Made by a program: the position numbers and the translations under genes. Below, piece by piece: positions 15,168-21,455 of a stretch of DNA of 45,329 nucleotides (its first letter is position 1; every line of letters starts with the position of its first letter). The stretch is from an uncultured Thiotrichales bacterium. Its GTDB lineage: Bacteria > Pseudomonadota > Gammaproteobacteria > CAZUMV01. The stretch lies in contig CALISW010000078.1 in assembly GCA_938041655.1 (NCBI GenBank), positions 1-45,329 of the forward strand. The letters run 5' to 3'. The notes beneath the pieces are model-generated. The model did not search any database. It had not been told where the DNA came from and saw nothing but the letters and a program-made list of their open reading frames with translations.

Positions 15168-16457
15168 CTACAGAGTTGGAGTATCTACACGCTGCCGGTA
15201 ATCCAGCCCCACTTTAAACGCCATGTAGACCCAGCCTGCTGCAATGATTGCCGCAATCAAAGATATCATCTGTGCAGAAAGTCCTAGAAATTTAAATCCG
15301 GCCATCACCCAGGTTGAGAGTAAATCTCCACCTCGATGTACCGTGGTATCGATGAAATTTTTGGCCTTATATTTCTCCTCTCTTTTGAGAGGCACATAGA
15401 GCATTTCACGCGCAGGTTTATTAACACCGTATTCGAAGGAACGCCGCAACACCTCAAGACCACCAAACAAAAATAGCACAGGCGAAAATACCAATAAAAC
15501 AAAACCGAGCAGAAAAACACCGGGCAAGATTGCCAGCGTACGCGACATGCGTAACCACTTTAATAACCGAGAGGTTAAAAACAGCTGAAAAATCAAGGCA
15601 ATTACATTCACTGTGGTATCGATGACTGAAAACAAACGTGTTCTTTCCATTGAGTCAGGAAAGAGGTCCGCAATCTGCTCAGCCACCATTAATGACAACA
15701 AAGTAGCGCATAGAGAATACCCTAGCATCAACGTGCAAATACCTAACAGGTATTTAGACCCCACAACCAGTTTGATCCCGTCCAGTACTCCCCCTTTTAA
15801 CTTCGGCTGGTGTTTTAGATGTTGCGCAGTCTCAATTTGATCAATCGGGTTTTGTAAGCGCCAGACTCTTAGCTTGTGAATGCAGAACAAGGTTAATACT
15901 AATAAGACAGCCGCAATCAAAAATAAATTACTCACACCCAAACTCTCAACCAGAAGCGCAGTAATTACCGGCCCTATTATGGCACCGGTCGTGCCGCCGG
16001 CTGCGATGGCCGCAAACAAACGCCTGGATTGCTCGCGCACAAAAATATCTGACATGAAACTCCAAAAGACAGACACCACGAAAAGGTTAAATACTCCGAC
16101 CCAGACATAGAAGCTTCGAGCGATAAGCGGCGTCACTTCACCCGCGCGAAACACGAGGTAAAATACGACGAGGTTAAAACTAAAAAAAAGATAAACCGTA
16201 TTCAGAAAAACTCTACGGGTGAGATTGCGTGTCATCCAACCGAAGACCGGTACAATCAAAAGCATGCTCAGAAACACGCCTAACGCCAGCCAATGAACCT
16301 TATCAATACCACTGATAATGATCATTTCTGTCCGGATGGGTCGAATTATGTAATAGCTACATAACAACAGAAAGAAATAGAAAAAAGACCAGCAAAGGGC
16401 ACTGACTTCATGTGGCCGGACATCAACCAGACGCAATACATTACGCTGAAAATTCAT
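15168..16457 (-). CDS. NTP/NDP exchange transporter-like (Npt/MFS-type) membrane protein
   Basis: The 429-residue protein has about eleven to twelve hydrophobic segments and matches a bacterial family annotated as NTP/NDP exchangers or MFS transporters. Features are the first-loop Y-Y-I-I-R-P-I-R-T-E-M, V-F-N-L-F-V-V-S-V-F-W-S-F-M-S-D after the fourth segment, and A-A-G-G-T-T-G-A-I-I-G-P in the next. Nucleotide exchange is proven for plastid and intracellular-parasite members only; the substrate of free-living homologues is uncertain. The protein is shorter than the roughly 500 residues of Rickettsia or Chlamydia members. No linked gene hints at substrate. Confidence 0.78.
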   Translation of the reverse strand: MNFQRNVLRLVDVRPHEVSALCWSFFYFFLLLCSYYIIRPIRTEMIIISGIDKVHWLALGVFLSMLLIVPVFGWMTRNLTRRVFLNTVYLFFSFNLVVFYLVFRAGEVTPLIARSFYVWVGVFNLFVVSVFWSFMSDIFVREQSRRLFAAIAAGGTTGAIIGPVITALLVESLGVSNLFLIAAVLLVLTLFCIHKLRVWRLQNPIDQIETAQHLKHQPKLKGGVLDGIKLVVGSKYLLGICTLMLGYSLCATLLSLMVAEQIADLFPDSMERTRLFSVIDTTVNVIALIFQLFLTSRLLKWLRMSRTLAILPGVFLLGFVLLVFSPVLFLFGGLEVLRRSFEYGVNKPAREMLYVPLKREEKYKAKNFIDTTVHRGGDLLSTWVMAGFKFLGLSAQMISLIAAIIAAGWVYMAFKVGLDYRQRVDTPTL

Positions 16458-16809: not shown

Positions 16810-17736
16810 ATGCCGATTTTACGCCCTTTACTGACATTAGTATTGTTACTCACAATCTGTCTCAGCGCCTGCTCAGGTAACAATTTGGTCATCTCGACCG
16901 CATACAACCGTGCTGATAACTCATCCGCTAAACGCTTTTACAAATACGCTAAATTCGATAGTAATGAAAAGAAACAAATCAAAGCGACTATTGATCAATT
17001 TCATCTATGGCATCGTAAACAACAACTACCAATCTATATCGATATGCTCAGAGAAGTAGAATACTCACTCGAAACCAATGACCCCCTTAATCAGGAAAAA
17101 ATCAACAACTGGATAAGCACCGTCTATTCTTTTAGAGATAATATTGAGCAATGCAATCCGATGCTCCAGTCTGCTGAATTTCTCGCGCAACTGACTGACG
17201 CCCAAGTGCTGGAAATCCAGGATCGATTTATTAAGTTACGACAAAAAAACGAAAAGAAACGAAACAAATACACAACCGAAGAACGTGAAAAACGACGCTT
17301 ACAATCAATGCTCAAGAGTCTCAAGTTCCTTGGGCTTAAAATGAATGATTCTCAAATTGAAATTCTTACCAACACCCTGGCTGAGACTGAATCTACCAAT
17401 AAATTATGGTTAGAACAGTGGCGGCTTTGGCAAGCAGAGTTCATAGATTTGCTTGCCGACAGACAGCAATCTGATTTCAAACCCAGGCTGCAACAACTGA
17501 TCGCCAAACTATCCCGTATTCCTGAAACTCACTATCCGGAAATATTGGCAGCCAATCAGGAACGCTGGAGCAATACCGCCCTGACGATTGGGAAAACACT
17601 CGACACAAAACAACAAGCAGATTTTTTGCAGGTTATTAAAAAAGTAAATTCGAGTTTAAACAAGCTGGCTAAGGACAGTCCAGCAGTGGATACCAGCATG
17701 GCTTTTCCAACAGAAACTCACTGCAGCCCTATCTAA
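16810..17736 (+). CDS. DUF6279-type lipoprotein
   Basis: The 308-residue protein opens with a lipoprotein signal (lipobox L-S-A-C). Features recalled from the DUF6279 family follow: a Y-N-R-A-D segment just after the Cys and F-H-L-W-H-R-K-Q-Q-L-P-I-Y about 50 residues later. The rest is helical and charged, consistent with an extracytoplasmic helical bundle. The function of the family is unknown. Its stop overlaps by 4 bp the stop of the convergent coiled-coil gene, so the two are unlikely to share a transcript. Monocistronic by position. Confidence 0.82.
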   Translation: MPILRPLLTLVLLLTICLSACSGNNLVISTAYNRADNSSAKRFYKYAKFDSNEKKQIKATIDQFHLWHRKQQLPIYIDMLREVEYSLETNDPLNQEKINNWISTVYSFRDNIEQCNPMLQSAEFLAQLTDAQVLEIQDRFIKLRQKNEKKRNKYTTEEREKRRLQSMLKSLKFLGLKMNDSQIEILTNTLAETESTNKLWLEQWRLWQAEFIDLLADRQQSDFKPRLQQLIAKLSRIPETHYPEILAANQERWSNTALTIGKTLDTKQQADFLQVIKKVNSSLNKLAKDSPAVDTSMAFPTETHCSPI

Positions 17737-19250
17737 AAACCACCACCGGTTTTAAAGCCTGACTTTCTTCGACCGCGACTGGAAGTCCGGGAACGAGATC
17801 GTGAGCGCGAACTATTGCCACCCATAGAGGGCAACTTGAAACCACCGGAACGCCTGCTTCTGCCACTAGGCAACTTGATTGAAACACCACCGGGTCGATG
17901 CCAGGGAGAACTACGTCTGCGGCGTCGACCACCTAAGCCACCGCTACCGAAATCTGGCCAGGCACCAACATCACGATGACGCTGATGTCTTTCTATAGTG
18001 CGCCATACATCTGCACCGCCAATTACGCCGCGCACAAATTGTTCGAGCACCGCCGAAATCAAGTGTCCATTACCAAAACCGGATCGCACGTCATCAAACC
18101 TTCTGCGTTTAAAATCACGTCTGATTTTTTCGATTTCCTTTAGACGCTTCAGTTGCGCACCATGCTGTCGGCGGTATTGCATAATTTCCGACTGAATATC
18201 ATCGGTGTCATCACGCAGGTCATCCAGCTGATCGACAAGCTGGTCATCTTGAGGGGTGCGACTAGTAGCAGCCATTTGTTCTAGCTGATAAATTTCTTTG
18301 GTTTCCAGCGCTTTGGTTAACAAAGTTAGACACTCGCCAATATACTGGTCGTTACCACCGGCATATATAGCGCGTTGCTCCAACAGTTCGCTGTGTTGAT
18401 CTTCAGTCGCGGCGATACGATCATCAATTTGATCCTGCACGTTTTGAGTCGCGGTAAGTGCATCTTGCAGCTTCTGCAAATCTGTTTTAGCAGCCGCCGC
18501 CAGCTCCATACGCTTTAAATCTTCACGCGCGTCTTCTGCTGCATCCCTGACCCGAGTTGCATGCTGCTCCAATCGTTGTGGAATCTCCAGCAAGGTCCAG
18601 TAATTTACGCGCCAGCGGTTATAACCACATAATCTAGCAACCCAACCATCCAACATGCGGGTTAAGGGATTGGCATGATATTCGGTTGTTCCATAACCAC
18701 GATGCCACAGATACATGAACAACTTATCATCTTCAAATGGCGTGCCTTTTTCATCACGATCAGCTTGTGCCTGCTCGGTTTTATCATCGGCACGATCAGC
18801 AATCTCGTCAGCCTTGCGTGCCTTTTCCAATTGCGACTGATATTCCAGATTCTTATCGAGCTGGGTCTGGATCGTATTCTCCAGGTCAATGACAGCCTGA
18901 GCAGCTTCATTCACTTTTGCATTCTGGTTGTCGCGGTCTTGTTCCAGCTGGGTTAATTGTTCTTTAGCGGCGTTTATTTTTTGTTCTAACGCTTCTATTT
19001 CATTTTGACGCTGCTGCAAAATAGAAGTGACCTGATGCTCCGCAGCATCTATCGCCTGTCGCACTTCTCCACTCGCAATCCCATCCAGCCGAACCTCGGC
19101 TATGGCTCTTGTCGTTTGTGTTTGCTGTTGTCTGTTCTTTGCCAATGACTGGGTTGCCATGGTTAGCTCGGAATCCACCCTGTCGATCTCATTACGCAAC
19201 GAGCGTATAGCCGTATCGAGGGTTGAGAGTGTTTCACGTCCGCTTTGCAT
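17733..19250 (-). CDS. coiled-coil protein with aromatic island and Arg/Ser/Gly-rich tail, unknown function
   Basis: I do not know a function for this 505-residue protein. Residues about 5-165 are heptad-like coiled coil rich in Gln, Glu and Ala. Residues about 176-225 form an aromatic-rich island (L-F-M-Y-L-W-H-R-G-Y-G, then L-D-G-W-V-A-R-L-C-G-Y and V-N-Y-W-T-L-L-E-I-P) that looks like the conserved core. Helical and coiled-coil sequence continues to about 385. The last 70 residues are low-complexity, with a five-Arg run at 442-446, R-S-R-S-R-S-R near 482-488 and a closing G-G-G-F. There is no signal peptide or membrane segment. The start overlaps the previous stop as TAATG, so it is third in a coupled operon. 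Confidence 0.8.
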   Translation of the reverse strand: MQSGRETLSTLDTAIRSLRNEIDRVDSELTMATQSLAKNRQQQTQTTRAIAEVRLDGIASGEVRQAIDAAEHQVTSILQQRQNEIEALEQKINAAKEQLTQLEQDRDNQNAKVNEAAQAVIDLENTIQTQLDKNLEYQSQLEKARKADEIADRADDKTEQAQADRDEKGTPFEDDKLFMYLWHRGYGTTEYHANPLTRMLDGWVARLCGYNRWRVNYWTLLEIPQRLEQHATRVRDAAEDAREDLKRMELAAAAKTDLQKLQDALTATQNVQDQIDDRIAATEDQHSELLEQRAIYAGGNDQYIGECLTLLTKALETKEIYQLEQMAATSRTPQDDQLVDQLDDLRDDTDDIQSEIMQYRRQHGAQLKRLKEIEKIRRDFKRRRFDDVRSGFGNGHLISAVLEQFVRGVIGGADVWRTIERHQRHRDVGAWPDFGSGGLGGRRRRRSSPWHRPGGVSIKLPSGRSRRSGGFKLPSMGGNSSRSRSRSRTSSRGRRKSGFKTGGGF

Positions 19251-20158
19251 TACCAGGCCGTTATGGTTGCGCCCGTACTGGGTACGGTGTAGTTGATCGC
19301 AAATTGGCCACGTTGTTTAGAGCCAATGATATTATTCTGGATGATGCCGTCATCGCGCTTGTCGTCTGCCACTTGATTAAAGGTGCGTTGATCTACTCGC
19401 ACACCCCAGGTATCAACCACGGTTGTTTGACCATCCTCTTCATCTCCAATCGCAACTTTTAACAGCTCGCCATTCGCAGCTACGGCCTCAACGATCAAAT
19501 AGTAATTACGTGCCGACTGATTCAAGTCCGGCACACGAAAAATCCCGGAATTCTCGTTTGGCCTTGAAATTACACGCACCTGATAACTTTGCTCCAGGGT
19601 CGAATACATACTGGACAATTCAGCTTGTAAAGCAGTTGCTTTGTCATAGTCCCTTTCACTCAGAGCATGTTCAGCGGACTGCCTCAATCCGGCAGCCTTG
19701 GCTAAAGCTGTCTTATCACTCGAGATGGAGGTGATGTTGGTATATTGACGTTCAATATTAGTTGGCAATGCTGCCAACGCATCTGCTTTTGGTTTTTGAA
19801 TACCAAAGTGATAGCCGCCCAATGCAATGCCGGCGAACAACAGGAGTGAGAGTAATGGCTTACCCCACTCTTCACGATCTACATACCAACGCGCCAGTTT
19901 TATAGAGAAACTTTCACGAGCAGGTTTATAACTAAAACGATCTTGCTCCAGCGCATCCACACCTTCAGCCAGTACGGCATCATGTACTTCTATACCTTGA
20001 GCCGTATAGATCTCGCGCAAGCGTTCAATTAAACGGCCGCGTCGCCCCTCGGCATCCAGCTCTCGATCCACCATGACCTGGTTATGCCGTAAGGTATCGA
20101 CCACATCCATCGCGACCATAAGGTCATCAAGCGACGCCTGTTCTTTGGCTGCACTCAT
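19250..20158 (-). CDS. single-pass membrane protein, DUF6384-like
   Basis: The 302-residue protein has a hydrophilic N-terminal part of about 100 residues (D-D-L-M-V-A-M-D-V-V-D-T-L-R-H then L-R-E-I-Y-T-A-Q-G-I), one membrane segment at about 101-120 and a 180-residue C-terminal part. Basic residues before the segment place the N terminus in the cytoplasm and the rest in the periplasm. The periplasmic part begins helical (130-190) and then looks beta-rich. I recall this type of N-terminal region as DUF6384, a family without known function; that name should be checked. It is the middle gene, 31 bp after the first and overlapping the third by 1 bp. Confidence 0.75.
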   Translation of the reverse strand: MSAAKEQASLDDLMVAMDVVDTLRHNQVMVDRELDAEGRRGRLIERLREIYTAQGIEVHDAVLAEGVDALEQDRFSYKPARESFSIKLARWYVDREEWGKPLLSLLLFAGIALGGYHFGIQKPKADALAALPTNIERQYTNITSISSDKTALAKAAGLRQSAEHALSERDYDKATALQAELSSMYSTLEQSYQVRVISRPNENSGIFRVPDLNQSARNYYLIVEAVAANGELLKVAIGDEEDGQTTVVDTWGVRVDQRTFNQVADDKRDDGIIQNNIIGSKQRGQFAINYTVPSTGATITAW

Positions 20159-20189
20159 CGTAAGTTAATCCGTATTAACAGGATGCAAA

Positions 20190-21365
20190 TTAATCGAGTT
20201 TGTGTGCTAGTGCCAGCGAATCACCACGAGATACAATCTTGGCCAAGCGCTGCTTGCCATCTTCTACCGAGTCTCGTATCTCGGCTGCATTCTGGGTAGA
20301 CAAGACACGCATCTCTGCGATGATTTCTGCCGAACGCTCCTGAAAACCAACCACTGACTCAACCAGTTTCTTGACTGACTCAGCTCTGATAGTTGGCCCG
20401 TAACCAGCTCGCACGGCAGCTTCTTGTACGGCACCACCAATGTCAGCCAGATCTTCCAGGCTCTTGGATACGCCCTCTTTCATGGCTTCCAGAGCTTCGG
20501 TGCTTTCGTGCAGACCAAACAGTCCAGTGAACGAAGCTGACAACGCAGTAAGCACTGACTCATTGGTACCAAAGAAGGTAATCGCCTGTTGATAAACGCG
20601 TTCCTTGGCACTTGTGGTTTGCATTAATCGCGCCATTACTACATCTGACGTGTTGTAGCTGACAGTCAAATTGTCCGATAAATCTTTAGCAATCTGGTAG
20701 CGTGCCTCTGCTGCCTGCAAATCGCGCATTTGCTCATCACGCGCCAGCTCGAGTTTGGCACGAGCACCCAGATTATCGCCTGTGAACTCGGCAACTTTAG
20801 CCGCAGCCGCATCCAGCTTGTCTTTTTCGCCTTCCCACTGCGCTTCTGCTTTCTTTAATACATCCAGCGCGTAGATTTCTGATTCCTTTAGTGCACCACG
20901 GAAATCCAGATAAGCATTCAGGATAATGTGCTCGCGCTCGATTTGATCGGCTGAATCACGGGTAACATCCAGATAAGTTTCTTTAATTTTGTCAAAACGG
21001 GTCGCTATATCACCGCGGGTGGCCTTCATCCAGATATTGGACAGGCGCTCAAAAGTGTCTACCCTGCCGTCATCAACCTGCTTCACCATTTTCTTCGCAT
21101 CATCGCGTATGCTATTGAAAGCATTGGTTATATCTTCGTATCTGTTGCCGATTTTCATCAGACTTACCTGCTCTCGCACAATATCATTGAATACTGATGC
21201 CTGGGTAAGTGTCCGAGCAATGGCGACAACTTTAGGCTCGTCCAGATCTGTGATTCGCTCCAATAATGTTACGACTGGCGCTTCATCAACTTTTTCTGGC
21301 ATTAAGCCTAAATCACGAATTTGACTAAGGGCTTTGTCGAGATATTTGAAGGTAGATTGACTCAT
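20190..21365 (-). CDS. all-helical cytoplasmic protein (so-called cell surface protein family), unknown function
   Basis: The 391-residue protein is predicted almost entirely alpha-helical and is rich in Ala, Glu and Lys, without signal peptide or membrane segment. Recognisable blocks are I-G-N-R-Y-E-D-I-T near residue 72, S-V-L-T-A-L-S-A-S-F-T-G-L-F-G-L-H and V-R-A-G-Y-G-P-T. I remember close relatives mislabelled cell surface protein in pseudomonads and vibrios; the helical layout also recalls TelA-type proteins, but I see no proof of homology. It is the first gene of the operon, with AGTAATTA-spaced GGAG before the ATG and a good promoter upstream. Probably a structural or adaptor protein. 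Confidence 0.75.
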   Translation of the reverse strand: MSQSTFKYLDKALSQIRDLGLMPEKVDEAPVVTLLERITDLDEPKVVAIARTLTQASVFNDIVREQVSLMKIGNRYEDITNAFNSIRDDAKKMVKQVDDGRVDTFERLSNIWMKATRGDIATRFDKIKETYLDVTRDSADQIEREHIILNAYLDFRGALKESEIYALDVLKKAEAQWEGEKDKLDAAAAKVAEFTGDNLGARAKLELARDEQMRDLQAAEARYQIAKDLSDNLTVSYNTSDVVMARLMQTTSAKERVYQQAITFFGTNESVLTALSASFTGLFGLHESTEALEAMKEGVSKSLEDLADIGGAVQEAAVRAGYGPTIRAESVKKLVESVVGFQERSAEIIAEMRVLSTQNAAEIRDSVEDGKQRLAKIVSRGDSLALAHKLD

Positions 21366-21426: not shown

Positions 21427-21455
21427 AATATAGGGACAGTTTATGGATGAGACAA
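21427..21455 (-). promoter_or_regulatory. sigma70-type promoter of the three-gene operon
   Basis: On the minus strand there is TTGTCT (21455-21450) and TATATT (21432-21427) separated by exactly 17 bp, four and five matches to consensus. The predicted start lies about 55 bp before the 391-aa gene. It gives the operon its own transcription, apart from the trp genes upstream. Confidence 0.6.

Follow-up and report, generated by a model that had tools for sequence, protein, structure and literature searches.

We analysed a contig of 45,329 nucleotides from an uncultured Thiotrichales bacterium (GCA_938041655.1, CALISW010000078.1; this whole stretch is referred to as the window), in which three genes on one strand, here called A, B and C, form a compact operon (Table 1). 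An earlier reading of the DNA letters, referred to as the original prediction, described them as a candidate undescribed envelope-linked set of proteins of 391, 302 and 505 amino acids (aa), and these open frames are confirmed. A and B are spaced by 31 bp. B and C have base 19250 in common within a TAATG stop-start junction, as had been proposed, and on sequence grounds this overlap couples the two genes. A dedicated promoter did not hold up: the best candidate is a single 9/12 match, and promoter-like sites in the region are not in significant excess (8 found versus 5.4 +/- 2.4 expected from shuffles).

Table 1. Features of the A-B-C locus in window coordinates
Feature	Position	Strand	Description
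Gene A, 391 aa	20190..21365	minus	Open frame; soluble, all-helical, probable remote TelA relative
A residues 266-330	20376..20570	minus	Highest conservation within A (mean top-residue frequency 0.84)
Gene B, 302 aa	19250..20158	minus	Open frame; DUF6384 (PF19911), predicted single-pass inner-membrane protein, N-terminus in
B residues 8-92	19883..20137	minus	Conserved cytoplasmic N-domain (conservation 0.64), putative docking site for A
B residues 102-120	19799..19855	minus	Transmembrane segment, by hydropathy and positive-inside rule
B residues 191-302	19253..19588	minus	Predicted periplasmic beta domain; conserved E241, R254, D266-K267, D270-G271, final W302
TAATG stop-start overlap of B and C	19248..19252	minus	Couples B and C
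Gene C, 505 aa	17733..19250	minus	Open frame; coiled-coil protein
C residues 174-224	18579..18731	minus	Conserved aromatic island (LF.YL..RGYGT..Y....R.LD)
C residues 498-505 and stop	17733..17759	minus	C-terminal motif G-F-x-T-G-G-x-F, nearly exclusive to gene C in gammaproteobacterial genomes
Weak sigma-70-like promoter candidate upstream of A	21427..21455	minus	9/12 consensus match, not above chance

Order and strand of A, B and C are kept at every bacterial locus recovered via A or B, allowing for loci cut at contig or fetch ends, and the adjacency repeats in distant orders, which the original prediction had named as support. The same 15 of 369 gammaproteobacterial genomes carry DUF6384, the family of B, and A; a sixteenth A was recovered as a fragment from the end of a contig. 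Across 34 loci, megaplasmids included, the three proteins have strongly correlated pairwise identities (r = 0.92-0.94), which argues that they evolve as a unit. Sequence comparison thereby shows joint inheritance of A, B and C in a fixed order, and we regard the set as almost certainly a real obligate module. It is rare and patchy in our genome surveys, which covered Pseudomonadota: about 4% of the gammaproteobacterial sample carry it, and one genome besides the window's own in a Pseudomonadota-wide sample of 399.

The module is chromosomal in Arenicella-type bacteria and Neptunomonas; N. japonica (locus L022) is one carrier. Eleven Arenicella-type loci share one context, in which the module follows lptF/lptG-type and RDD-like genes and mostly precedes sodB, pyk, guaB and guaA; pepA belongs to this context as well. 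Megaplasmids carry it in Pseudomonas, Rhizobium, Bradyrhizobium, Microvirga and Methylorubrum, the last represented by M. extorquens AM1 (locus L046). On pMPPla107 (locus L043, 5641-14093) the cassette follows about 2.3 kb downstream of the gene for a StiP-PELOTA protein. It is likewise downstream of genes for a metallophosphoesterase and a PTH2 protein, an arrangement reminiscent of Ter-linked biosynthetic modules. On the P. aeruginosa PA83 megaplasmid (locus L040, 9989-20564) the cassette is annotated 'merozoite surface protein 3b' / DUF6384 / hypothetical, and type IV CRISPR genes (csf2) lie some 5 kb away. Of the homologues named in the original prediction, those in pseudomonads were confirmed; the label 'cell surface protein' occurs in Bradyrhizobium, and vibrio homologues appeared in none of our searches.

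B is a full-length member of DUF6384 (E 6e-113, 377.5 bits versus a cut-off of 25, profile positions 2-308). It has one hydrophobic segment, and in 36 of 41 homologues Lys and Arg are more frequent on the N-terminal than on the C-terminal side of it, which places the N-terminus of B inside the cell. Beyond the membrane segment, a helical hairpin, which is variable, and a beta domain, which is conserved, are modelled confidently. These features agree with the single-pass protein with a periplasmic domain envisaged at the outset. In one gammaproteobacterial family (loci L067, L068 and L069) B is longer, at 421-444 aa, and carries an insert that separates the membrane segment from the beta domain; Pseudomonas plasmids and the Yersinia jumbo phage phiR1-37, described below, also carry longer B proteins. 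We found no mention of DUF6384 by name in the literature searched. Its Pfam entry describes B alone and gives no function; it includes neither the obligate partners A and C nor the copy in a jumbo phage or a link between the N-domain and A.

C is a coiled coil with an aromatic island and a low-complexity tail ending in G-F-x-T-G-G-x-F. The coiled coil and the island were predicted correctly, whereas the tail, described only as charged, is basic and Gly/Ser-rich in the window species (Arg/Ser/Gly) and not of mixed charge. This basic character is not conserved: the tail is Ser/Gly-rich with little Arg in Pseudomonas plasmids and in phiR1-37. The DNA pattern of the ending plus stop occurs six times in 143 gammaproteobacterial genomes; five occurrences are gene C, and the sixth is broken by an in-frame TGA. 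Such near-exclusivity points to a private feature of the module rather than a general sorting tag, and the GFxTGGxF C-terminus can serve as a simple diagnostic for finding it. Variant endings (GFSSSDSF and similar) of C proteins from Pseudomonas plasmids and phage fall outside the searched pattern. Matches of C to SMC proteins involve the coiled coil only (20 bits versus a cut-off of 567), and C has no ATPase domain.

A is the most conserved of the three proteins (median identity 69% versus 44% for B and 36% for C, 34 loci), with 72-78% conservation between genera. Its AlphaFold2 model is all-helical, in agreement with the original prediction, and contains two long helices (residues 119-192 and 199-267). 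Residues 278-330, inside the most conserved stretch, are modelled mostly at pLDDT <50. Because highest conservation coincides with the least confident part of the model, residues 266-330 are a candidate partner-binding or oligomer interface, and the model suggests a segment that becomes ordered on a partner. Hydrophobic segments of the kind found in signals or membrane anchors are absent from A and C (maximal 19-residue hydropathy averages ~1.0). Searches of Pfam, NCBIfam, PADLOC and PHROGs with A and C returned no useful family, and a PDB sequence search returned no relatives of A or B, the weak B matches being mostly designed miniproteins. The module matches no characterised system at usual thresholds, which bears out the view of it as undescribed. 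Tripartite alpha-pore-forming toxins of the Ahl and Smh type scored E 0.037 at best, with TM <0.33, and were rejected as fold relatives because such scores reflect general coiled-coil background, and chemoreceptors were dismissed as the same background.

A resembles the TelA / KlaA / YaaN toxic-anion-resistance family (PF05816; accompanied by XpaC in Firmicutes) in length, in all-helical build and in a full-length collinear profile alignment. This signal appeared only with TelA profiles enriched in phage and proteobacterial members; a direct profile search was negative. The phage members were taken from annotated phage records, since a TelA scan of viral contigs gave no match. HHalign of A against the enriched profiles gave scores of 44-47 over 324-341 collinear columns, end to end, with a probability of 69-81%, which is below conventional certainty. 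The register was the same with differently built TelA sets, and leave-one-out scores were 37-46. In the controls, reversed profiles reached 18-19 and unrelated globular families 13-17, and none of 330 shuffles, by column or by block, exceeded 32.2; shuffles of 28-column blocks, in which helical stretches stay intact, were among them. The 50 viral models closest to A in fold include two annotated phage TelA proteins (E 0.02 and 0.09, TM <0.3, not significant alone). Overall, profile comparison indicates that A is probably related to TelA by remote descent, without being a member of the TelA family.

The window host encodes a true TelA elsewhere, and TelA and A each occur in large phages. A membrane-protein partner gene is common to the two: TelA is found with XpaC in Listeria (PMC12791056) and in phage phiD12. 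The partners themselves differ, A being accompanied by DUF6384 and C, and TelA by XpaC, SPFH, LemA or TerC/TerD. In large phages (loci L095, L097, L100 and L136) the recurring membrane-linked neighbours of TelA are SPFH (Phosso), LemA (121Q), TerC/TerD (Bambus) and XpaC (phiD12). Likeness to Ter-associated stress modules (StiP, TerC, TerD and LemA neighbours) is seen in the StiP-PELOTA gene near the pMPPla107 cassette, but no Ter family recurs near other cassettes.

Phage phiR1-37 carries the module as g190-g191-g192, all three annotated as hypothetical. The first is A (39% identity, profile E 1.6e-159) and the second is DUF6384 (Pfam 4.7e-26, family profile 1.9e-75). In the C position, g192 gives a weak match to the C profile (4e-4), lacks the aromatic island and ends in GGGGGFSSSDSF, a terminal pattern shared with C proteins of Pseudomonas plasmids. 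RNA-seq and receptor papers on phiR1-37 do not mention g190-g192. Scans of viral contigs with single A or B proteins gave no match; the A profile recovered phiR1-37 and four contigs with A-B-C near a phage-integrase-like gene, which we judged to be host flank or uncertain.

A record deposited as Dolichospermum phage Dfl-JY45 contains B (6e-56) and C (1e-44, ending RVTGGGF), and A is absent from the entire 209-kb record. Here B is changed or deleted at 11 of 12 signature positions of the N-domain, while of the 17 signature residues in its beta domain nearly all are retained. Since B is degenerate only in its N-domain where A is missing, this lineage suggests that the cytoplasmic N-domain of B holds A, and it lends support to the proposal, made at the outset, that A touches the first ~100 residues of B. 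The B-C pair in Dfl-JY45 is possibly put to a different use. In this stretch (locus L094, 4978-12284) the pair is followed by a 1233-aa DUF3584 protein, MukB/JetC-like and of SMC type, with no PADLOC match.

Taken together, we tentatively suggest that A-B-C is a TelA-like, inner-membrane-anchored scaffold for envelope maintenance; as a whole this reading is plausible, though short of probable. Its structural scaffold character is inferred. A, a cytosolic helical protein, would dock on the cytoplasmic N-domain of B. B would span the inner membrane once and place its helical hairpin and beta domain in the periplasm, where they might bind or sense an envelope component, B relaying a signal or a mechanical link to the beta domain. 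C, made together with B through the TAATG junction, would be a coiled-coil rod in the cytosol, serving to bridge or multimerise the complex, and its Phe/Gly tip (GFxTGGxF-COOH) could hook a partner within the module. When the cell is stressed, such an assembly may steady its inner membrane or envelope, a role that would suit conserved chromosomal sets as well as passengers such as megaplasmids or a jumbo phage whose infection is long. The analogy with TelA leads us to propose tolerance of envelope damage: TelA disruption in Listeria lowers innate resistance to nisin and cell-wall antibiotics, according to Collins et al. 2010 as cited in PMC12791056, which describes TelA/XpaC function in Listeria as not well established. 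In our analysis the envelope-maintenance function as stated is possible and to be taken with reserve. We consider doubtful a broader formulation, in which the module would represent an undescribed class of inner-membrane assembly (hyper-conserved cytosolic A, single-pass adaptor B, coiled-coil rod C with a GFxTGGxF assembly hook) with which bacteria, megaplasmids and a jumbo phage alike would remodel or protect the inner membrane of the host.

Several results weigh against the envelope scaffold. The Pfam TelA model recognises no A protein among the 11 that were scanned, neither the window A at E <= 1 nor the ten divergent ones at E <= 10, and HHalign with ten bacterial TelA sequences alone gave no A match. 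The best helical competitor, C versus TelA, scores 36-37, so the coiled-coil background is not negligible. The A model is only middling in quality (mean pLDDT 71), and fold searches with A and B gave no significant match (Foldseek against the PDB, nothing at E <= 0.001). The docking argument comes from one lineage, Dfl-JY45. No neighbour gene recurs across distant lineages (among 89 flanking proteins from diverse loci, no family exceeds three members), and the pMPPla107 cassette is the only one beside a tellurite-stress-type gene (StiP).

The failures of the Pfam model and of the few-sequence comparison, together with a background that reaches 37, favour a reading in which the module is real but the likeness of A to TelA is generic to helical proteins, A-B-C then being an unrelated, entirely new scaffold. 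We consider this unlikely, because the A-TelA alignment is full-length and collinear, keeps one register, is stable to leave-one-out and scores above all shuffles, the 28-column blocks included.

An anti-phage or inter-phage exclusion system, mobile and patchy, with the phage copy aimed at competitors, appears similarly unlikely. Presence in only 15 of the 369 gammaproteobacterial genomes, the type IV CRISPR genes near the P. aeruginosa cassette and the DUF3584 gene beside B-C in Dfl-JY45 favour it, and carriage by megaplasmids and phiR1-37 keeps it alive. However, no catalytic domain was recognised in the module. PADLOC contains nothing for A or B and gives only weak coiled-coil matches of C to JetC and others; at E <= 0.001 it returned nothing for phage A and C or for the Dfl-JY45 C. 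The single housekeeping context of the Arenicella-type loci and the housekeeping neighbours in the window also speak against defence. Moreover, A is very strongly conserved between genera, unlike most defence genes, and this conservation, combined with a stable chromosomal context, argues against a fast-evolving defence system.

We find it quite improbable that the module is a cytoplasmic scaffold tethering the nucleoid, with an SMC-like C whose basic Arg/Ser/Gly tail could bind nucleic acid and a B that tethers it to the membrane. The weak SMC-type matches of C, its basic tail in the window species and the DUF3584 neighbour in Dfl-JY45 fit such a tether. Yet coiled-coil composition would be expected to give matches of this size, only the terminal motif of the tail is kept in Pseudomonas plasmids and phiR1-37, the module has no ATPase, and such a tether does not account for B having a conserved periplasmic domain. 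A surface or adhesion structure, suggested by the labels 'cell surface protein' and 'merozoite surface protein 3b' alone, is hardly credible: A and C lack signal- or anchor-like segments, the sole membrane segment of B comes after a 100-residue cytoplasmic domain, and the labels most likely stem from low-complexity or coiled-coil matches.

Bacteria and large phages widely carry TelA-type proteins. If A is their remote relative, the module adds a second type of operon: its three partners are fixed, it has a defined membrane anchor, and a candidate domain for docking and the near-unique motif at the end of C offer concrete, testable interfaces. Carriage by phiR1-37 and megaplasmids, the probable kinship of A and TelA and the dedicated terminal motif of C go beyond the original prediction. 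The phage copy suggests a role for g190-g192 and raises the question of why a lytic phage carries a host-envelope module.

Downstream of the module in the window, a DUF6279 lipoprotein-like gene (16810-17736, plus strand) is convergent with C and overlaps its 3' end by 4 bp. Further on, an MFS-type protein (15168-16457, minus strand) matches the TLC ATP/ADP-translocase family (PF03219, 2.7e-19).

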